This document shows positions 4,195-19,985 of a stretch of 19,985 nucleotides of DNA, in pieces. The position numbers and the translations under genes are program-made. The stretch comes from an uncultured Bacteroidales bacterium (GTDB taxonomy: Bacteria; Bacteroidota; Bacteroidia; Bacteroidales; UBA932). The notes below the pieces were generated by a model. That model saw only the letters and a list, made by a program, of their open reading frames with translations. It was not told where the DNA came from and ran no database searches. The first letter of the stretch is position 1, and each line of letters begins with the position of its first letter. The stretch spans positions 1 to 19,985 of the forward strand of contig CAKULN010000047.1 in NCBI GenBank assembly GCA_934667175.1. Reading direction: 5' to 3'.

Positions 4195-6378
4195 ATGACA
4201 CATACTTTCAAGAAAGCTGTGGCGTTGGTGGCTGCGCTCCTTATCGGGAGCGTGGCCTCTTTCGCGCAGGCCCCGGAGGCGACCGCCAAATGGTCAGTCT
4301 CAAGCAAGGCTGTTTCCGGCAACGTTTTCGAGTTGACTTTCAAAGCCACTATCGAGGACGGTTGGCACATCTACACGGTTGATCATGAGTATAACCCTAT
4401 TGTCATTGAGTTTGCTCCCAGCCAGGAATATTCATTGACAGGGGATCTTAAGCAGGTGACGAAACCGTCTGATTTTCAAGGAGAGAAAGTCTTTTTTGAT
4501 TCCGTCACACTCACCCGTAGGGTTAAGTTGACCGGAAGCGAGGCCACGGTCAAAGGTGAGGTCTCCTGGAGCGGGTGCAACGACAGATTCTGCGCGGCTC
4601 CGGAGTCGTGGGAGTTTTCCGTGCCTCTGGTGTCGGAAATCTCCGTCAAGCCAGCCTCGTCTGAGAGTGCCGCTTCGGAAGAAACCCTTGTGCAGCCAAC
4701 GCTTTCTCGGGACAATGGCTCTGTCGCCTCGGATGTCGTTGCTGATGATTCCAAGGCCGATGACGTCTCTTCGTCACTTACGGTCTCTAGTGATGAAAGC
4801 AAGAGCGAAGGCTCTCTCTGGGCCCTGATTATCGAAGCGATTCTTTGGGGATTCGCCATGCTGATGACCCCGTGCGTGTTCCCGATGGTTCCGATGACGG
4901 TGTCGTTCTTCATGAAACAGTCCACAACCGCCGCCGAGGGCCGTTTCAAGGCTTTCATCTACGGACTGTTCATCGTGCTTCTTTACACTGTCCCGATCAG
5001 TGTGATCATAGGCTTGACTTGGATCATCGGAGGAAACACAGTCACCGCTGACATATTCAATTGGCTTGCGACTCATTGGCTGCCGAACCTGATATTCTTC
5101 ATTGTGTTCATGATTTTCGCGGCGTCCTTCTTCGGGGCATTCGAGATCGAACTGCCGTCCAGCCTTGCCAACAAGAGTGACGCCAAGTCTGGCACCAAAG
5201 GACTTGGGGGAATATTCTTCATGGCTTTGACCCTCGTGCTGGTGTCATTCTCCTGTACGGGGCCTATTGTCGGCACGGTGCTGATCAAGTCCACGCAGGG
5301 TGAGTTCTGGACACCGATGGTCACGATGCTGGCGTTCTCCGTAGCCTTTGCCCTTCCGTTCACGATCCTGGCGATGTTCCCGTCGCTGCTGAAGAAGATG
5401 AAGGGCAAGTCCGGCTCGTGGCTGAACAGCGTGAAGGTTGTCTTGGGCTTCATCGAGGTAGCACTTGGCTTCAAGTTCCTCAGTGTCGCAGACCAGACCT
5501 ATCATTGGGGGCTGCTCGACAGGGAGGTTTATCTGGGAATATGGATCGTCACGTTCTCGCTTCTGGGTTTCTATCTTCTTGGTAAGCTGAGGTTCAAGAA
5601 TGACGATCCGGTGGAGCATGTCTCTGTGCCGAGACTCGGCCTTGCGATTGCCGTGTTCACTTTCGTGGTCTATATGATTCCTGGAATGTGGGGTGCTCCA
5701 CTGAAGGCGTTGTCCGGGTATCTTCCACCGTTGGAGACCCAGGATTTCGTGGTTTACAATTATGCGGATTCACCGGCCAGTCCGGTCACTTCGGTCGCTT
5801 CGACAGGCTCAGCGACCAGAATGATGCACGGATCGGTAGCTGATCCTGTGGGGCGGCAAGGCTCAGCGACCACCGAAGCGACTGCCCCCGTCGGCGCTAC
5901 GACAGGCTCAGTGGCCGGAGCATCCACTTTCGGCCAGAAATACGACCTCAAGATGCCCCTTGGTTTGACGGGATACTTCACTCTTGAAGAAGGCCTTGCC
6001 GCTGCCAAAGCCCAAGGCAAGCCTGTCTTCGTGGACATCACCGGCCATGGCTGCGTCAACTGCCGCGAGATGGAACAGCGCGTCTGGAGCGACCCAAGAG
6101 TGTTGGATATTCTTAGAAATGAATATGTTCTCGTGGCCCTCTATGTGGACGACAAGAGCAAACTCGACGAGTCTGACTGGCTGACAACACCGGAAGGCAA
6201 GACCCTGAAGGAGATCGGTCGTGTCAACTCTTACATCGCCCGCACCCGTTTCGGAGTCAACGCCCAGCCTAACTACGCCCTTTTGGATTCAGACGGCAAC
6301 CAGCTTGTCCCTGTCCGTGGCTACAACCTATCCATCGAAGGCTTCATCGACTTCCTGAACTCCGGCCTTAAGAAATAG
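4195..6378 (+). CDS. dsbD: Thiol:disulfide interchange protein DsbD, with repeat-derived linker
   Basis: A 727-aa inner-membrane protein that passes electrons from cytoplasmic thioredoxin to periplasmic thiols. A signal peptide (1-25, ending ASFAQA) precedes an N-terminal DsbD-alpha domain with its cysteine pair C128/C133 (GCNDRFC). Then comes a CcdA-like multi-helix core (about 205-515) with TPCVFP (C227) and SCTGP (C354), and a C-terminal thioredoxin-fold domain with CVNC (620-623). All three redox pairs are intact, so it should work. Odd: the linker between the last membrane helix and the thioredoxin domain (about 528-575) is made of in-frame copies of a palindromic DNA repeat and reads as Ser/Thr/Ala/Gly-rich sequence. 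It starts 36 nt after rny, so co-transcription is possible. Confidence 0.93.
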   Translation: MTHTFKKAVALVAALLIGSVASFAQAPEATAKWSVSSKAVSGNVFELTFKATIEDGWHIYTVDHEYNPIVIEFAPSQEYSLTGDLKQVTKPSDFQGEKVFFDSVTLTRRVKLTGSEATVKGEVSWSGCNDRFCAAPESWEFSVPLVSEISVKPASSESAASEETLVQPTLSRDNGSVASDVVADDSKADDVSSSLTVSSDESKSEGSLWALIIEAILWGFAMLMTPCVFPMVPMTVSFFMKQSTTAAEGRFKAFIYGLFIVLLYTVPISVIIGLTWIIGGNTVTADIFNWLATHWLPNLIFFIVFMIFAASFFGAFEIELPSSLANKSDAKSGTKGLGGIFFMALTLVLVSFSCTGPIVGTVLIKSTQGEFWTPMVTMLAFSVAFALPFTILAMFPSLLKKMKGKSGSWLNSVKVVLGFIEVALGFKFLSVADQTYHWGLLDREVYLGIWIVTFSLLGFYLLGKLRFKNDDPVEHVSVPRLGLAIAVFTFVVYMIPGMWGAPLKALSGYLPPLETQDFVVYNYADSPASPVTSVASTGSATRMMHGSVADPVGRQGSATTEATAPVGATTGSVAGASTFGQKYDLKMPLGLTGYFTLEEGLAAAKAQGKPVFVDITGHGCVNCREMEQRVWSDPRVLDILRNEYVLVALYVDDKSKLDESDWLTTPEGKTLKEIGRVNSYIARTRFGVNAQPNYALLDSDGNQLVPVRGYNLSIEGFIDFLNSGLKK
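5784..5915. repeat. Cluster of REP-like palindromes inside dsbD
   Basis: One full copy lies at 5793-5817: arms GGTCGCT and AGCGACC (7 bp perfect) around TCGACAGGCTC. It is preceded by a partial copy GGTCACTTC (5784). A diverged copy at about 5854-5871 has the half CGGCAAGGCTCAGCGACC, and another at 5893-5915 has GACAGGCTCAGTGGCC. All lie in the periplasmic linker of DsbD and all are read in the same phase, giving VASTGSATR, QGSATT and ATTGSVAG. No stop or frameshift results. Confidence 0.85.
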
Positions 6379-6379
6379 C

Positions 6380-6513
6380 CGTGGCGCTTAATGCGCTATA
6401 AATAAATGTTTTAACGTGATGTCCCAGTGCTGGTTTCAGCACCGGGACATCATGTTATGTGCTTAACTATTAATGGCTTAAGCGCCACGCAACCGGGATT
6501 GTTAATTTTTTTT
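6380..6513 (+). terminator. Nested inverted repeats after dsbD, possible terminator or structured 3' UTR
   Basis: Directly after the dsbD stop an outer 12-bp perfect inverted repeat, CGTGGCGCTTAA (6380-6391) with TTAAGCGCCACG (6478-6489), encloses a strong hairpin. That hairpin has a 14-bp lower stem (6412-6425 with 6444-6457, one G-T pair), one mismatch, then GTGCTG/CAGCAC and loop GTTT. No U-run follows the inner hairpin; a T8 run stands at 6506-6513, 17 nt after the outer arm. It probably separates dsbD from the next operon. The 6490-6579 remainder is AT-rich with no TAnnTTTG match; the promoter of the 6580 operon, perhaps ECF-dependent, must lie here but I cannot point to it. Confidence 0.5.
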
Positions 6514-6579
6514 CTTAATCGTTTTTAGCATATCGGGAGTTTAAGGTGTCTTATCTTATGTATAACGTTTATATGCTCT

Positions 6580-6945
6580 ATGAAACTAAAACTCATAACA
6601 AAACTCATTCTGGCCGTTCCGCTGATTCTCGGTGGGCTCGCTTGCCAGAAACAAACAGAGTCTGAGGTGCATGACACGGTCGTCATCCAGACAGAATTAT
6701 CGGCCAAGACTCCGGCTACATTGGTGGGCGGAGGAACGGATCTGATAACAATCTATGCCACATGTGACTGGTCGCTCGAAGGAGAGGATTGGTTTACGAT
6801 CGAGCCTTCCAAGGGATCGAAAGGCGTGAGCGAATCCGTCATCACTACACAGCCTAACACGACCGGGGCTGACCGTACGGGTACAATACGTCTCATGGCT
6901 GGGTCATATTCAGGTACTTACACGTTCACCCAAGCGGGCAAATAA
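6580..6945 (+). CDS. BACON-domain lipoprotein
   Basis: A 121-aa lipoprotein: signal sequence with lipobox LACQ (Cys22), then one BACON-like domain at about 35-120. The domain shows the expected pattern of CDWSLEGEDWFTIEPSKG, the N-T-x-G-x-x-R-x-G-T-I block (NTTGADRTGTI) and the closing TFTQAG strand. BACON domains are small beta-sandwiches found mainly in Bacteroidetes surface lipoproteins, where they act as spacers or ligand-binding modules. The TAA stop overlaps the fecR ATG by one base (TAATG), so the two are translationally coupled. It occupies the place directly ahead of fecR where an ECF sigma gene normally stands. A role in sensing or in substrate capture is inference only. Confidence 0.8.
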   Translation: MKLKLITKLILAVPLILGGLACQKQTESEVHDTVVIQTELSAKTPATLVGGGTDLITIYATCDWSLEGEDWFTIEPSKGSKGVSESVITTQPNTTGADRTGTIRLMAGSYSGTYTFTQAGK

Positions 6946-8132
6946 TGAAAGTCGAGGACTACAGACGAATTCTGGATTTTTTCTTCAGTGGGGTGGAAGT
7001 CTCCGAGGAACTTAAAATGCGGTATCTCGGTTGGCTTGCGGCGCATGGGGAAGAACCGGAAGTGAGGGCTTTGCTTGAGGAATATTGGGACTCGGTCGCT
7101 TCAGATTCTCCGGATTTCGACTTGACGGCCGGGCTGGAGAGGCTTATGACCTCATTGGGAGAGAACGGCGCTTCGGTGGCTGATGAGCCTTGCCGAACCA
7201 CTGGCTCAGCGACCGGAAAAGTGACTGTGGCAGCGGGCGCTTCGACAGGCGCTTCGACAGGCTCAGCGACCCGGTCGGTCCCTGAGCCTGCCGAAGGGAC
7301 ATGCTCTACGAAAAAGTCTCCGGTCGCTAAGCCAGTCCCTTCGACAAGCTCAGGGACCGGAAAAACCAGTTGGTTGACCAGACTTCTCGGCACGAGACCA
7401 TTGAGGTACTGTGCCGCTGCTGCCGCAGCCGTGGTGATATTCATAGGTGGTGCTGCCGTGGCGAGACTGAACATGACTCCAGAAAGAGAGACAGTGCTCA
7501 TCGCCTCTGTCGACAACGTCAGTTCCTACACTTTGCCGGACGGCACGAGAGTGTGGCTGAACCGAGGCGGAAAGCTGTCCTACAATCAGGATTTCGGAAG
7601 ACTGGAGAGAAATATAGCCATTGACGGTGAAGGCTATTTCGAAGTCACTCGGAATGAAGAGTGTCCTTTCATCGTGAATATGCACGACAATCTTCAAGTC
7701 AAGGTTCTTGGAACGACATTTAACGTGCTCAGCAATCCGGATGAGCATTCCGCAGAGGTGATTCTCCGTAGTGGTTCGGTGCAGGTCTCTGACACGCAAA
7801 GCAAAGAACTCGTGATTCTCAAGCCAGACCAGAAATATTCATGGAACAGAGGCCTGACAGAGGTTTCGGCTGTGAATGCGGACGATTGCTGCCGGTGGTA
7901 CGAGCACAGGCTTGCCTTTGACAATGCAAGGCTTGGCGACATTCTGGAAGGGTTGTCACACAAGTACCAGATCAGGATGACTTGTGTGGAACCGGGATTG
8001 AGGGACAAAAGAATGTCTCTGACAGTAAAAGATGAGTCCATCGGAGACATCATGGAAATCCTCTCGACACTCCTTCCGATCAGATGGGAGCGTCAAGGTA
8101 AGACAATCATAATTGATAGCAAAAACCAATAA
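6945..8132 (+). CDS. FecR-family anti-sigma factor with repeat-expanded linker
   Basis: A 395-aa inner-membrane regulator of the SusC/FecR/ECF trans-envelope pathway. The N-terminal cytoplasmic sigma-binding part is about 1-75. One membrane helix (about 153-175, Ala-rich then VVIFIGGAAVA) leads to the periplasmic FecR domain (about 185-290, YTLPDGTRVWLNRGGKL and GEGYFEV blocks). The DUF4974-type C-terminal domain (about 320-393, LAFDNARLGDILEGLSHKY) should contact the STN domain of SusC. Between the sigma-binding part and the membrane helix lies a roughly 65-residue linker (about 76-141) built from palindromic DNA repeats, unusual for the family. It overlaps the BACON gene by 1 nt and precedes susC by 5 nt. 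Its sigma partner is probably the ECF gene at 16785, the only one seen here. Confidence 0.9.
   Translation: MKVEDYRRILDFFFSGVEVSEELKMRYLGWLAAHGEEPEVRALLEEYWDSVASDSPDFDLTAGLERLMTSLGENGASVADEPCRTTGSATGKVTVAAGASTGASTGSATRSVPEPAEGTCSTKKSPVAKPVPSTSSGTGKTSWLTRLLGTRPLRYCAAAAAAVVIFIGGAAVARLNMTPERETVLIASVDNVSSYTLPDGTRVWLNRGGKLSYNQDFGRLERNIAIDGEGYFEVTRNEECPFIVNMHDNLQVKVLGTTFNVLSNPDEHSAEVILRSGSVQVSDTQSKELVILKPDQKYSWNRGLTEVSAVNADDCCRWYEHRLAFDNARLGDILEGLSHKYQIRMTCVEPGLRDKRMSLTVKDESIGDIMEILSTLLPIRWERQGKTIIIDSKNQ
7170..7358. repeat. Cluster of REP-like palindromes inside fecR
   Basis: At least four copies lie in 190 bp. At 7170-7214 is a composite (GGTGGCTGAT...GGCTCAGCGACC). At 7239-7271 is a forward copy with its first half doubled by a 12-bp tandem duplication (CTTCGACAGGCG at 7240 and CTTCGACAGGCT at 7252). 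At 7277-7300 is a copy in opposite orientation with arms GTCCCT/AGGGAC, and at 7335-7357 a forward copy with the same arms around TCGACAAGCTC. A fragment GGTCGCTAAGCC stands at 7322. All are read in one phase and give peptides such as GASTGASTGSATR, SVPEPAEGT and PVPSTSSGTG. Confidence 0.85.
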
Positions 8133-8137
8133 TACTA

Positions 8138-11100
8138 ATGTTAATGAAAGGAATATCCAACATTCTTCCTTCATTCACCAAAACCGTCCTTTGTGTCTTG
8201 TGTGCGATCGGGCTTTCGCTCGGAGCGTACGCACAGAGCAGGACAGCGAGTGTGAATGTCAAGGACGTGACAGTCAAGGAACTCTTGAAGGCCATCGAGG
8301 CCGGAAGTTCCTACACTTTCGCTTATGTGGACACCGACATTGACCTTGCCCGCAAGGTCTCGGTGACAGCGAAGGATGAGAGCATCGAAAACATCCTCAA
8401 GAGGGTGCTTCCCGGTGTCAAAGTTGAATTCAAGGATCAGAACATTCTTCTGAGCAAGAAGGCTCCTGAACCTAAACCTAAAACAGCTCAGACAACTGGT
8501 CCGAAAGTCATCACCGGAAAGGTTGTTGACAAGTCCGGTCAGCCGGTGATCGGGGCCATGGTCATCGAACGTGGCACCAACAATGGAACCGGAACAGACA
8601 TTGACGGAAAATACGAACTCAAGGTCAAGGGTGATGATGCGGTTCTGGACGTCTCCATCATCGGCTACAACAGCGCCTCAGCTACATTGACCGCAGGACA
8701 ATCCAAGGCTGATTTCGTGCTAGAAGAGGAGGCCATCAAACTGGACGACGTGGTTGTCATCGGCTACGGTGCACAGAACAAGAGAGATGTCACGACATCC
8801 ATCGCCTCCATCAAGGCCGAGGACTTCGCCAATACTCCGACCACTGACTTCCGTGAATCCATGGCGGCCAAGATGCCTGGTGTTCAGGTCCTCAACTTGG
8901 GCGGTCAGCCTTCCGGCAATGTCTCCGTCAGGGTCAGGGGTATCCAGTCCGCCACATCCGGCAATGATCCTCTTTACGTTATCGACGGAATCCCTTGCGA
9001 CTCAAGGGCCTTTGCCAATCTTGACGGCAACGACATCGAAAGCCTTGAGGTCCTTAAGGACGCGTCAGCGGCAGCTATCTACGGATCCAGAGGATCATGT
9101 GGAGTCATCCTTGTGACCACCAAACGTGGAGCAAACTCAGAGACTCCGGTGATTTCCTACGATGGTCAGTTCAGCGTCTCGAATGTCTCAAAGAAGATCG
9201 ACATGCTCGATGCCTACGAGTTCGCGGAGATATTCAAAGAGGCTAGGGACGGTGCATATCTCTTCAATGTCCCTACCGGTTCGATCGGAGATCCTTATAG
9301 CAGTCGTCCGGAGAGTTACCACTGTGTCGATCCTCTCATCATTGCCTATCTTCAGGACAAGACGGGAACCTTGACCAACACTGACTGGCAGGACGAAATT
9401 TTCCGCACGGCTCTCTCGCACAAACACGCTCTCAGTGTGTCAGCGCGTACCAAGGACTACAACTACTACATTGGCTTGAACTACCTTAACCGCGAGGGAA
9501 CGATCATAGGATCTGACTTCGAGAGGTACGGGCTCCGGGCCAACCTTGATGGCAAGAAGGGCAAGCTGAAATATGGCGTAAGTTTCTCACCGTCATATTC
9601 AAAGACCAACTATGTGAACTCTGATGGCCAGTACGGAAGCGACGGTGTGATCGCGTCTGCCTTGATGGCTCCTCCGGTCTTCCCGGCCTATAACTCTGAC
9701 GGCTCCTATAACTGGGACATGAACGGATTCCTGAAATTCAATGTCTACAACACTCAGACAAATGAGGTTTTGAACCCAGTGGCATTGGCTCTGGAAATCG
9801 ATGATGTCAGGGAAAAATTGAATATGGTGGGCAACGTCCACGCTTCCTACGAGTTCATCAAAGGACTTGAATATAAAGTCACGGTCGGGGGAGACTACTA
9901 TTCCTACATCAGGAACTACTACCGTCCGTCCTATATTCCGCTCAAGGGATCGAAGTACTACGACAAACCTTCATCCCCGACAGCCGCCAACTACACCCAG
10001 TCCTATTTCCACTGGAACGTCACCAACCAGATTTCGTTCAACAGAAAGTTCGGAGAGCACTCTGTTAATGCTGTGGCTGTATATGAAGCTGAAAAACAGG
10101 CAATCCAGACCTCTGCAATCAAAGGTACCGGCACTGAGGGTGATGACAAGATCTTGACAACCAAAGGAAAGACGCTCTCAATTGATGACACATTCAATGA
10201 CAAGTACGCCTACACCTTCGCTTCCTGGCTTTTCAGAGCCCAATATTCTTACAAAGGGCGCTACATGTTCTCCGCTTCGATAAGAGGTGATGCATCCTCA
10301 CGATTCGCACCGAACACGAGGTGGGGTTATTTTCCTGCCGCGTCTGCTGGCTGGAGAATCAGTGATGAAAATTTCATGAAGAACACCAAGAGTTGGCTGA
10401 ATGACCTCAAGTTGCGCGCTAGCGTCGGTCAGACCGGTAATGCGCAGATCGGTAACTCTGCGTATCTTGCTCTTTATGGTTCCAGCAACCTGGACCTTGG
10501 AAACGGAATCGTGAATGCGATGTACCCTTCCCAGATCGCCAACAATGAACTTGGCTGGGAGAAAAACACCCAGACCAACATCGGCTTCGATGCAAATCTT
10601 TGGAACGGTCTTCTCGGCATCAACGCTGACTTCTATTATTCTAAGACCACTGACATGCTTTTCAACATTCCTGTGTCATCCGTGTCGGGTCTTACGAAGT
10701 CGAATGTCAACATCGGTTCGATGCAGAACAAAGGAGTGGAAATCACGTTGACTTCCCACAAGTCGTTCGGAGACTTCTCTATGGATTGGAACGCCAACTG
10801 GTCGCTGAACAGGAACAAAGTCCTGTCTCTTGGTGACGAGGACGCTCCGCTGATTGTGGCGTCTTCATATTCAGGAGCCAACTACATCACAAAGGTCGGC
10901 TACCCGGTTGGTTGCTACTACCTGCTCGTGCAGGATGGCATCTTCCACAATCAGGAGGAACTCGACACCTATCCTCACTTCGACACATCTGTGGTAGGCG
11001 ACTTCCGCTTTGTGGACGCCAACGGCGACGGCAAACTCGACAAGGACACCGACCGTGTGATTGTCGGCAACTATATGCCTGATTTCTACTATGGATTCGG

Positions 11101-19775: not shown

Positions 19776-19781
19776 GATCGA

Positions 19782-19847
19782 CAGCGAAAAAAGAAAAACC
19801 AAAATTTTGCACGGTGGACCAAAATTTTGGTTTTTCTTTTTTCGCTG
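19782..19847. terminator. Bidirectional terminator with 28-bp perfect arms
   Basis: A perfect inverted repeat with 28-nt arms (19782-19809 and 19820-19847) and a 10-nt loop. The arms contain an A-rich tract (AAAAAAGAAAAACC) on the left and its complement, ending TTTTTCTTTTTT, on the right, around CCAAAATTTTG. In either direction it gives an A-tract, stem and U-tract, the layout of a two-way intrinsic terminator. It ends the glpT transcript and would also stop a convergent transcript from beyond the right edge. Confidence 0.7.
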
Positions 19848-19867: not shown

Positions 19868-19890
19868 GTCACTTCGGCAGGCTCAGTGAG
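19868..19890 (+). repeat. Degraded REP-like copy, forward orientation
   Basis: GTCACTTCGGCAGGCTCAGT followed by GAG: same core as the in-gene copies, with TCACT/AGTGA still pairing over 5 bp. Its second half, GGCTCAGTG (19880-19888), also pairs with CACTGAG...AGCC (19905-19917), which is followed by TTTTT (19918-19922). This gives a possible second terminator built partly from the repeat. Confidence 0.7.
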
Positions 19891-19959
19891 CAATCGCTCT
19901 TGTGCACTGAGTCAGCCTTTTTCCGGTAAGGGATTTTACTTTTCGATCATTGAACTTCC

Positions 19960-19984
19960 GGTCACTGAGCTTGTCGAAGTGACC
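19960..19984 (-). repeat. Full REP-like palindrome, reverse orientation
   Basis: A 25-bp copy with perfect 7-bp arms GGTCACT and AGTGACC around the reverse of the core (GAGCTTGTCGA). It faces the copy at 19868 across about 70 bp, forming a head-to-head pair as in REP doublets. It ends one base before the window edge, so more copies may follow. The DNA between the pair shows no gene. Confidence 0.8.
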
Positions 19985-19985
19985 G

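Follow-up and report, generated by a model that had tools for sequence, protein, structure and literature searches.

A family of REP-like short palindromes carried in frame in linkers and loops of Bacteroidales proteins

A stretch of 19,985 nucleotides from an uncultured Bacteroidales bacterium (assembly GCA_934667175.1, contig CAKULN010000047.1; the whole stretch is referred to as the window) contains two genes, dsbD and fecR, that carry in frame several copies of a short palindrome resembling the repetitive extragenic palindromic (REP) sequences of bacteria. With the core TTCGACARGCTCAG, we identified 7 matches at up to 2 mismatches, of which 2 lie in dsbD (starting at 5799 and 5898), 3 in fecR (7253, 7282 on the reverse strand, and 7340) and 2 in intergenic DNA after a gene for a major facilitator superfamily (MFS) transporter (19873 and, on the reverse strand, 19965). 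In 200 dinucleotide shuffles, the mean number of matches was 0.39 and the maximum 3, such that none reached 7. Both host frames are uninterrupted (727 amino acids for DsbD and 395 for FecR). The original prediction, made from the letters of the window, that one palindrome family fills a linker in each of the two genes without breaking the frame and recurs in the non-coding right end, is thus borne out, and its linker coordinates proved accurate to a few bases.

Each window copy forms an imperfect hairpin of ~25 bp whose stem has at most 7 bp, a size within the 20–40 bp of REP short palindromes. Single copies fold slightly more stably than shuffled sequences (z = −1.7, −0.8 and −2.1 for genic copies, −0.5 and −2.5 for the right-end copies), and the inverted pair in fecR (7270–7362) reaches −50.1 kcal/mol (z = −6.5). 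Closely spaced inverted pairs, as in REP doublets forming hairpins (REPINs), were found both in the spacing tallies and in the window, where the last two fecR copies of Table 1 form such a pair. A composite of 47 nt is common to dsbD and fecR in opposite orientation (39 of 47 positions identical), which means that one DNA arrangement is read as protein on both strands. An Rfam scan of the window yielded nothing at gathering score.

Table 1. Palindrome copies and their hosts in the window.
Feature	Position	Strand	Basis
dsbD host gene: DsbD N-terminal domain, DsbD_TM, thioredoxin-like C-terminal domain	4195..6378	+	Open reading frame, Pfam
DsbD linker, membrane domain to thioredoxin-like domain, residues ~523–583	5761..5943	+	Domain limits, family orthologues
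Palindrome GGTCGC-core-CGACC, exact core, reads STGSAT	5793..5817	+	Core match
Degenerate composite palindrome, inverted counterpart of 7169–7215	5834..5880	+	Repeat comparison
Palindrome copy, core with 1 mismatch, reads TTGSVA	5893..5916	+	Core match
fecR host gene (anti-sigma factor family)	6945..8132	+	Open reading frame; Pfam FecR, FecR_C
FecR linker, residues 72–154, between helix 60–71 and hydrophobic helix 155–175	7158..7406	+	AlphaFold
Composite palindrome, reads EPCRTTGSAT	7169..7215	+	Repeat comparison
Palindrome, exact core at 7253 plus partial duplicate of left part, reads ASTGASTGSAT	7238..7271	+	
Opposite-orientation palindrome, gene strand reads VPEPAEGT; inverted pair with neighbours	7276..7300	−	Core match, folding
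Palindrome, exact core with AAG, reads PSTSSGT	7335..7358	+	Core match, folding
Intergenic palindrome copy, following MFS gene	19868..19891	+	Core match
Intergenic palindrome copy, inverted relative to 19868, running to window end	19961..19985	−	Core match

The 120 DsbD homologues among the matches listed represent the window's clade (118 of these with 711 amino acids) and have related linkers, degenerate in P0002. A DsbD scan of genome contigs did not recover the window's genus (best relative at 51% identity). We then used the membrane domain to search 344 genomes of the order of G001, taken as Bacteroidales, where the best match was G276 (85%), in whose family DsbD was matched at 1e-60 in 225 of 259 genomes. 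The palindrome is absent from the DsbD linkers in the best 30 of these 225 loci; two of the loci examined, L383 and L388, have weak two-mismatch core matches outside the linker but within the gene. From SGYLPP to the thioredoxin motif, the linker spans 53–88 residues in the 27 of 30 loci that could be delimited (two others were cut at 100 by the script and one had no anchor), compared to 102 residues in the window; in G893, the best family match (72%), it has 85 residues. Because the family linkers exist free of palindromes and are shorter, the linker predates the palindromes, which lengthen it as a later addition, and the possibility that DsbD linkers are new as such was rejected, all 27 delimited linkers being present without the palindrome. 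In L373, the linker is extended by direct repeats reading QPGMTYGV, a route unrelated to palindromes.

For FecR, AlphaFold (with a 35-row alignment) gave a mean predicted local distance difference test (pLDDT) score of 68.8, with almost all of residues 72–154 below 50; the hydrophobic helix 155–175 is likewise predicted at low confidence (pLDDT <50). FecR homologues (53–92% identity) have linkers of 39–92 residues where these could be delimited and hold, at the protein level, from none to several palindrome peptides (STGSATG, PELVEG, EPCRTTGSA, LRQAQCT). The underlying motif scan took 35 of the 120 homologues listed and was loose, with 22 matched and 13 not (two of them fragments) and several linkers wrongly delimited, and was used only for this spread from none to several. 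P0140 and P0138 differ by 16 linker residues around a palindrome peptide; because repeats lie at both ends, either insertion or deletion could account for the difference. P0137–P0139 were rejected as ancestral empty forms, since the flanking SSAS repeats make deletion equally likely. Searches for FecR found none in the 268 genomes of the family of G001 at 1e-60, none in the 344 genomes of the order sample at 1e-40, and distant matches only (54 of 173) in the family of G468.

Across the order, the exact core is present in 127 of the 344 genomes, compared to 5 hits in total for the reversed control. Most genomes contain few exact copies, and the maximum is 80 in G600, with 50 in G468, 41 in G527 and 29 in G577, such that genomes other than that of the window contain the many copies characteristic of REPs. 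In a sample of 30 loci, one per genome, a strict in-gene rule admitted 12 of the 35 exact copies (several of the copies lie near contig ends); G468 with its relatives, and perhaps also the clade of the window, are therefore exceptional. REPs are by definition mainly extragenic, which does not describe the window (5 of 7 copies in genes) or G468 (58 of 87), and possibly does describe the family elsewhere (12 of 35). Related sequence was also noted on plasmids from other phyla (37 records, of which 13 are Sphingobium, with incomplete annotation), with no annotated feature beneath 23 of the 25 matches listed and weak E-values (0.07–3 among the matches listed), and may be regarded as a lead only. 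Literature searches with the core DNA, judged by title among the matches listed, returned nothing on palindromes, and searches with the palindrome peptides returned nothing; no publication on this family in Bacteroidales genes was found among the matches listed, which came from a collection lacking most subscription papers.

G468 was picked for closer study as a copy-rich genome with a related DsbD (64% over residues 205–726). We identified 87 copies, 50 exact and 37 with one mismatch, compared to 3 for the reversed control. According to a codon model, 58 of the 87 are clearly intragenic, 15 lie at or before the chosen start, 10 are uncertain and 4 have no open frame. This model also classes as coding 90% of the fetched segments, which had been selected around copies; this suggests that the copies are placed nearly at random with respect to genes, with modest purging. 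The flanks of in-gene copies retain their coding bias. A pattern of our own flagged 13 of the 58 in-gene copies as adjoining sequences that resemble C-terminal domains of the type IX secretion system (T9SS), and these 13 may have been copied by gene duplication. A GPSTGSGT-like palindrome stands directly before a T9SS-like sorting sequence (FTVYPNP) in L139, L140, L155, L156, L159, L162–L164 and L170 of G468; the hosts are several secreted-protein genes, and both duplication and repeated insertion could have produced this arrangement. The other 45 in-gene copies are read in frames encoding PEPVEG (15), STGS (13), LRQAQ (10), SLSLSK (5) and FDRLR (2), with none in the frame that contains TGA, a bias that is significant when copies are treated as independent (chi-square test, p = 1.6 × 10−4 for six frames and p = 0.011 for five).

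Among 20 G468 host proteins run against Pfam, 19 matched a family (L143 matched none): PHP hydrolase, UbiA, GDP_Man_Dehyd, mevalonate diphosphate decarboxylase, DnaX, MurD, gyrase/topoisomerase IV subunit A, transketolase, EPSP synthase, TilS, topoisomerase, nucleotidyl transferase, HemN-type radical SAM, ABC transporter, amidohydrolase, DUF58, polyprenyl synthetase, abhydrolase and, below the cut-off, DUF6395. The UbiA and DnaX copies belong to the uncertain class. By family, most of these hosts are soluble enzymes. The location between a soluble domain and a membrane segment, to which the original prediction drew attention, therefore holds for both window linkers, each of which has a hydrophobic or membrane part on one side, and fails as a general rule, and the membrane-protein context of the window hosts is incidental.

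Orthologues of the G468 hosts were compared at the insertion sites with the pattern TTCGACARGCTCAR at one mismatch, which thus also captures a sister form with a terminal A. Of the 172 genomes of the G468 family, 163 have MurD, and in the best 30 of these 163 loci one site is filled in 24, with single copies, inverted pairs or more, and empty in 6. Six further genes were searched jointly in 16 relatives of G468 (counts are aligned rows including G468), and the G468 site is filled in 3 of 11 rows for transketolase, 7 of 12 for TilS, 11 of 16 for mevalonate decarboxylase, 8 of 15 for the dihydroorotase-like gene, 3 of 14 for AroA and 3 of 16 for HemW, where two other rows are filled elsewhere. 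Rows were lost for want of anchors in TilS (two) and HemW (two), and the transketolase-like L348 and L349 (46% identity) and the partial dihydroorotase-like L309 were not aligned. Transketolase is the clean case, with an identical gap of 33 bp in 7 of 11 rows and another short sequence in one row. A single loop can be occupied in either orientation, in different frames and by different repeat families: in mevalonate decarboxylase (mvaD), G468 reads SLSLSKGRP, and in most other filled rows the palindrome is reversed and gives GPSTGSGT-like peptides, the TilS loop reads VPEPVEGP or GPSTGSGT, and the AroA insert occurs in three forms. Frames are intact across many orthologues in different species. 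In one alignment each, the best-scoring Protein Data Bank relatives of AroA, MurD and transketolase show a gap where the insert lies.

Copies are also combined in recurrent ways. A nested composite, with one palindrome inside another, occurs in tilS (L296), mvaD (L353) and murD (L263) and adds 24 bp to the plain form. Another composite, PEPxVPEAxRRVEG, was found in the dihydroorotase-like gene, in aroA, in two murD genes and in one further frame that follows a stop, and also exceeds the plain form by 24 bp where measured (153 vs. 129 bp). As the composites are common to unrelated genes, they themselves seem to travel. Additional length steps, including ones of 33 and 39 bp, were seen. In the HemW loop, five relatives carry instead a CGTCATTGCGAGG-initial repeat or like peptides, and two carry a GAGACTGCGAGAC-type repeat (grouping by eye). 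The second repeat family (CGTCATTGCGAGG; peptides VIASKAKQSR and RHCEERSNPD..LDCFVPPRNDAKR), also recognized by eye, lies in frame at another MurD site (L257, L264–L266, L270, L271, L274 and L275) and in the same HemW loop (L335, L339, L340, L343 and L344); the third, with GAGACTGCGAGAC and GTCCCGTGTCCCG arms, lies in frame within that HemW loop in L334 and L337.

We further searched for an enzyme that could mobilize the palindromes. Y1 transposases (PF01797) are encoded in 38 of 48 genomes, comprising 22 of 24 copy-rich genomes vs. 16 of 24 without exact copies, a comparison uncorrected for genome size or kinship. At 46 Y1 loci of other genomes (one gene counted twice and some loci truncated at contig ends, with many further PF01797 matches outside the set), none has a family copy at up to 2 mismatches within 500 bp, and the copy-rich G577 and G527 have no PF01797 match. 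G468 encodes a REP-associated tyrosine transposase (RAYT; NF047646, 89.1 bits vs. an NCBIfam cut-off of 80) that is flanked by palindromes of another kind: GTCAGTCGGCCCGACTGAC-type palindromes lie on both sides of the gene (L234:8026–8071 and 8775–8795), and together with it form a candidate REPtron of another family. The search for a RAYT or Y1 gene proposed with the original prediction thus turned up no partner: a RAYT flanked by the same palindrome, as in REPINs, was rejected for the 46 Y1 loci and for the G468 RAYT.

The other genes of the window encode CobW, a ZapA-like protein, RNase Y, a BACON protein, a SusC/SusD-type pair, a sigma factor and a phosphodiesterase-like protein, in addition to DsbD, FecR and the MFS transporter; names are from reading of the translations, with Pfam support for CobW, DsbD, BACON and FecR. 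In the dsbD surroundings of five relatives (13–19 kb each, 85 kb in total), CobW, the ZapA-like protein and RNase Y are in place in 4 of 5, and RNase Y in 5 of 5; these 85 kb contain 4 core matches, each with one or two mismatches; the exact core is absent, and FecR gave no match at E 1e-15. Beside the right-end palindromes lies a perfect 28-bp inverted repeat (19782–19847), and its surroundings (19779–19813) match in inverted orientation, at 83%, a segment near the left window end (64–98). Between dsbD and the BACON gene, there is a long imperfect inverted repeat (6380–6489) with arms of 53 nt at 72%.

We consider it very probable that these REP-like short hairpins are a family that multiplies by DNA copying and insertion and is tolerated in gene linkers and loops when the frame is kept. 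Imperfect hairpins of ~24–25 bp would be copied, either as hairpin DNA at replication or by a Y1 transposase in trans, and inserted; a genic insertion would survive if the frame stays intact and the site is a flexible linker or surface loop, with selection probably acting as a filter and the loops presumably lying at the protein surface. The family seems suited to genes, in that it is stop-free in five of six frames, the two nested composites measured each add exactly 24 bp, equal to eight codons, and its commonest frames would encode flexible or polar peptides (GPSTGSGT, VPEPVEGP). A linker would grow through further copies, through inverted pairs and through nesting of one palindrome in another, the nested step presumably being an insertion, and would shrink by deletion. 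Judging by the sequence comparisons, the palindromes colonize and lengthen an old linker rather than create one. Of the proposal that a spreading repeat makes new linkers in Bacteroidales, the repeated and spreading nature therefore stands (127 of 344 genomes) and the novelty of the linkers does not, as the 27 DsbD linkers pre-exist; the comparison of orthologues suggested with it gave palindrome-free, shorter linkers for DsbD and a varying number of palindrome peptides for FecR. Whether certain loops of housekeeping enzymes are landing pads repeatedly re-invaded, in both orientations and several frames, by unrelated palindrome families, whose repeats evolved to be harmless in genes (stop-free in five frames, with a whole-codon unit), we consider evenly balanced; if so, mobile DNA living in genes would continually make protein segments.

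Several points weigh against multiplication by copying and insertion into genes as a general account. The in-gene evidence derives mainly from G468 and related genomes rather than from the window's own genome, and an in-gene majority throughout the order was rejected by the 30-genome sample. Within G468, some one-mismatch hits are due to chance, given the 3 control hits, and the one-mismatch hit in the DUF58 gene resembles native sequence rather than an insert; the genes were called with a codon model of our own that was trained on the same DNA, and the 20 proteins run against Pfam are a partial sample, chosen by us, of 60 hosts. The step of 24 bp comes from two kinds of composite, and no transposase is tied to the palindrome in the loci examined.

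The same observations bear on what else could have produced the palindromes. Selection for flexible Ser-Thr-Gly-Ala linkers, together with slippage, could yield convergent DNA with no mobile unit; linker sites are indeed present in relatives without palindromes, and the commonest reading is a Ser-Thr-Gly peptide. We nevertheless consider this improbable, because the same DNA is read in five frames as unrelated peptides, copies are also intergenic, composites are common to unrelated genes, and, most strongly, frame and orientation change at one site, such that one loop holds either orientation. Even less credible is excision of the inserts from RNA or protein, or decay of the genes: that inserts lie inside conserved domains of housekeeping enzymes might suggest it, but the frames intact in many orthologues across species and the coding bias of the flanks speak against it.

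Two further explanations concern the mode of copying and are harder to set aside. Gene conversion or template switching between copies, in which hairpins at replication forks are copied into other hairpins with no dedicated enzyme, agrees with the nesting of palindromes, with the partial duplication of one arm at 7241 and with the failure to find a cognate transposase in the loci examined, including two copy-rich genomes that have no PF01797 match; however, the palindrome-free sites of relatives, as in transketolase, require a step starting in unrelated DNA, and we regard this explanation as possible without favoring it. A classical RAYT/REP pair with the RAYT acting in trans appears slightly less likely still. 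The inverted pairs look like REPINs, G468 encodes a RAYT above the NCBIfam cut-off, and Y1 genes are found in more of the copy-rich genomes, but that difference is uncorrected for genome size and kinship, the G468 RAYT is flanked by a different palindrome, none of the 46 Y1 loci has a family copy nearby, and G577 and G527 are copy-rich without a PF01797 match.

A small repeat is thus present in genes for core metabolism, wall synthesis, DNA topology, tRNA modification and secretion, at sites that are filled in some close relatives and empty in others. Such sites amount to many natural experiments on the acceptance of new segments by proteins. They also make REP movement directly testable, as insertions into conserved genes can be located with single-base precision.

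The best-known coding palindromes are those of Rickettsia and Wolbachia. The palindromes described here resemble the Rickettsia palindromic elements and, judging by their name, the Wolbachia protein-coding palindromic repeats in lying in frame in genes, including those of conserved proteins, and also in intergenic DNA. The Rickettsia elements measure 105–146 bp, lie in frame in many genes for conserved proteins as well as between genes, and in one case are carried by an enzyme that remains active (PMC2229807). Our units of ~24–25 bp, found in Bacteroidales as inverted pairs and nests, fall well short of that length, and are set apart by length, host and arrangement rather than by sequence comparison. 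The enterobacterial RU (PMC2759123) and neisserial Correia repeats (PMC2229807), which are likewise small mobile repeats with open frames fused to genes, are longer (103–168 bp and 107–155 bp) and occur in other hosts, a comparison made by description rather than by sequence. Intragenic REPs of the GTAG and CGTC classes are also close: they are reported inside genes as singles, dimers and clusters, the clusters encoding 43–82 residues, and CGTC repeats are known from Bacteroidetes among other phyla (PMC3733652). Most of those REPs are reported to be intergenic, whereas the majority of G468 copies are intragenic, and the window copies, judged by eye, have no GTAG or CGTC end; a second, CGTC-initial repeat occupies some of the same loops as our family. 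REPINs with RAYT (PMC3116915, PMC2817692) also consist of small palindromes alternating in orientation at short distance, but our family has no RAYT beside it in the loci examined, and its G468 copies are largely in genes. The likeness to Rickettsia, offered by the original prediction as the closest precedent, is thus apt without being the sole precedent, intragenic REPs having been published, and the family is best viewed as a coding repeat much smaller than the Rickettsia elements.

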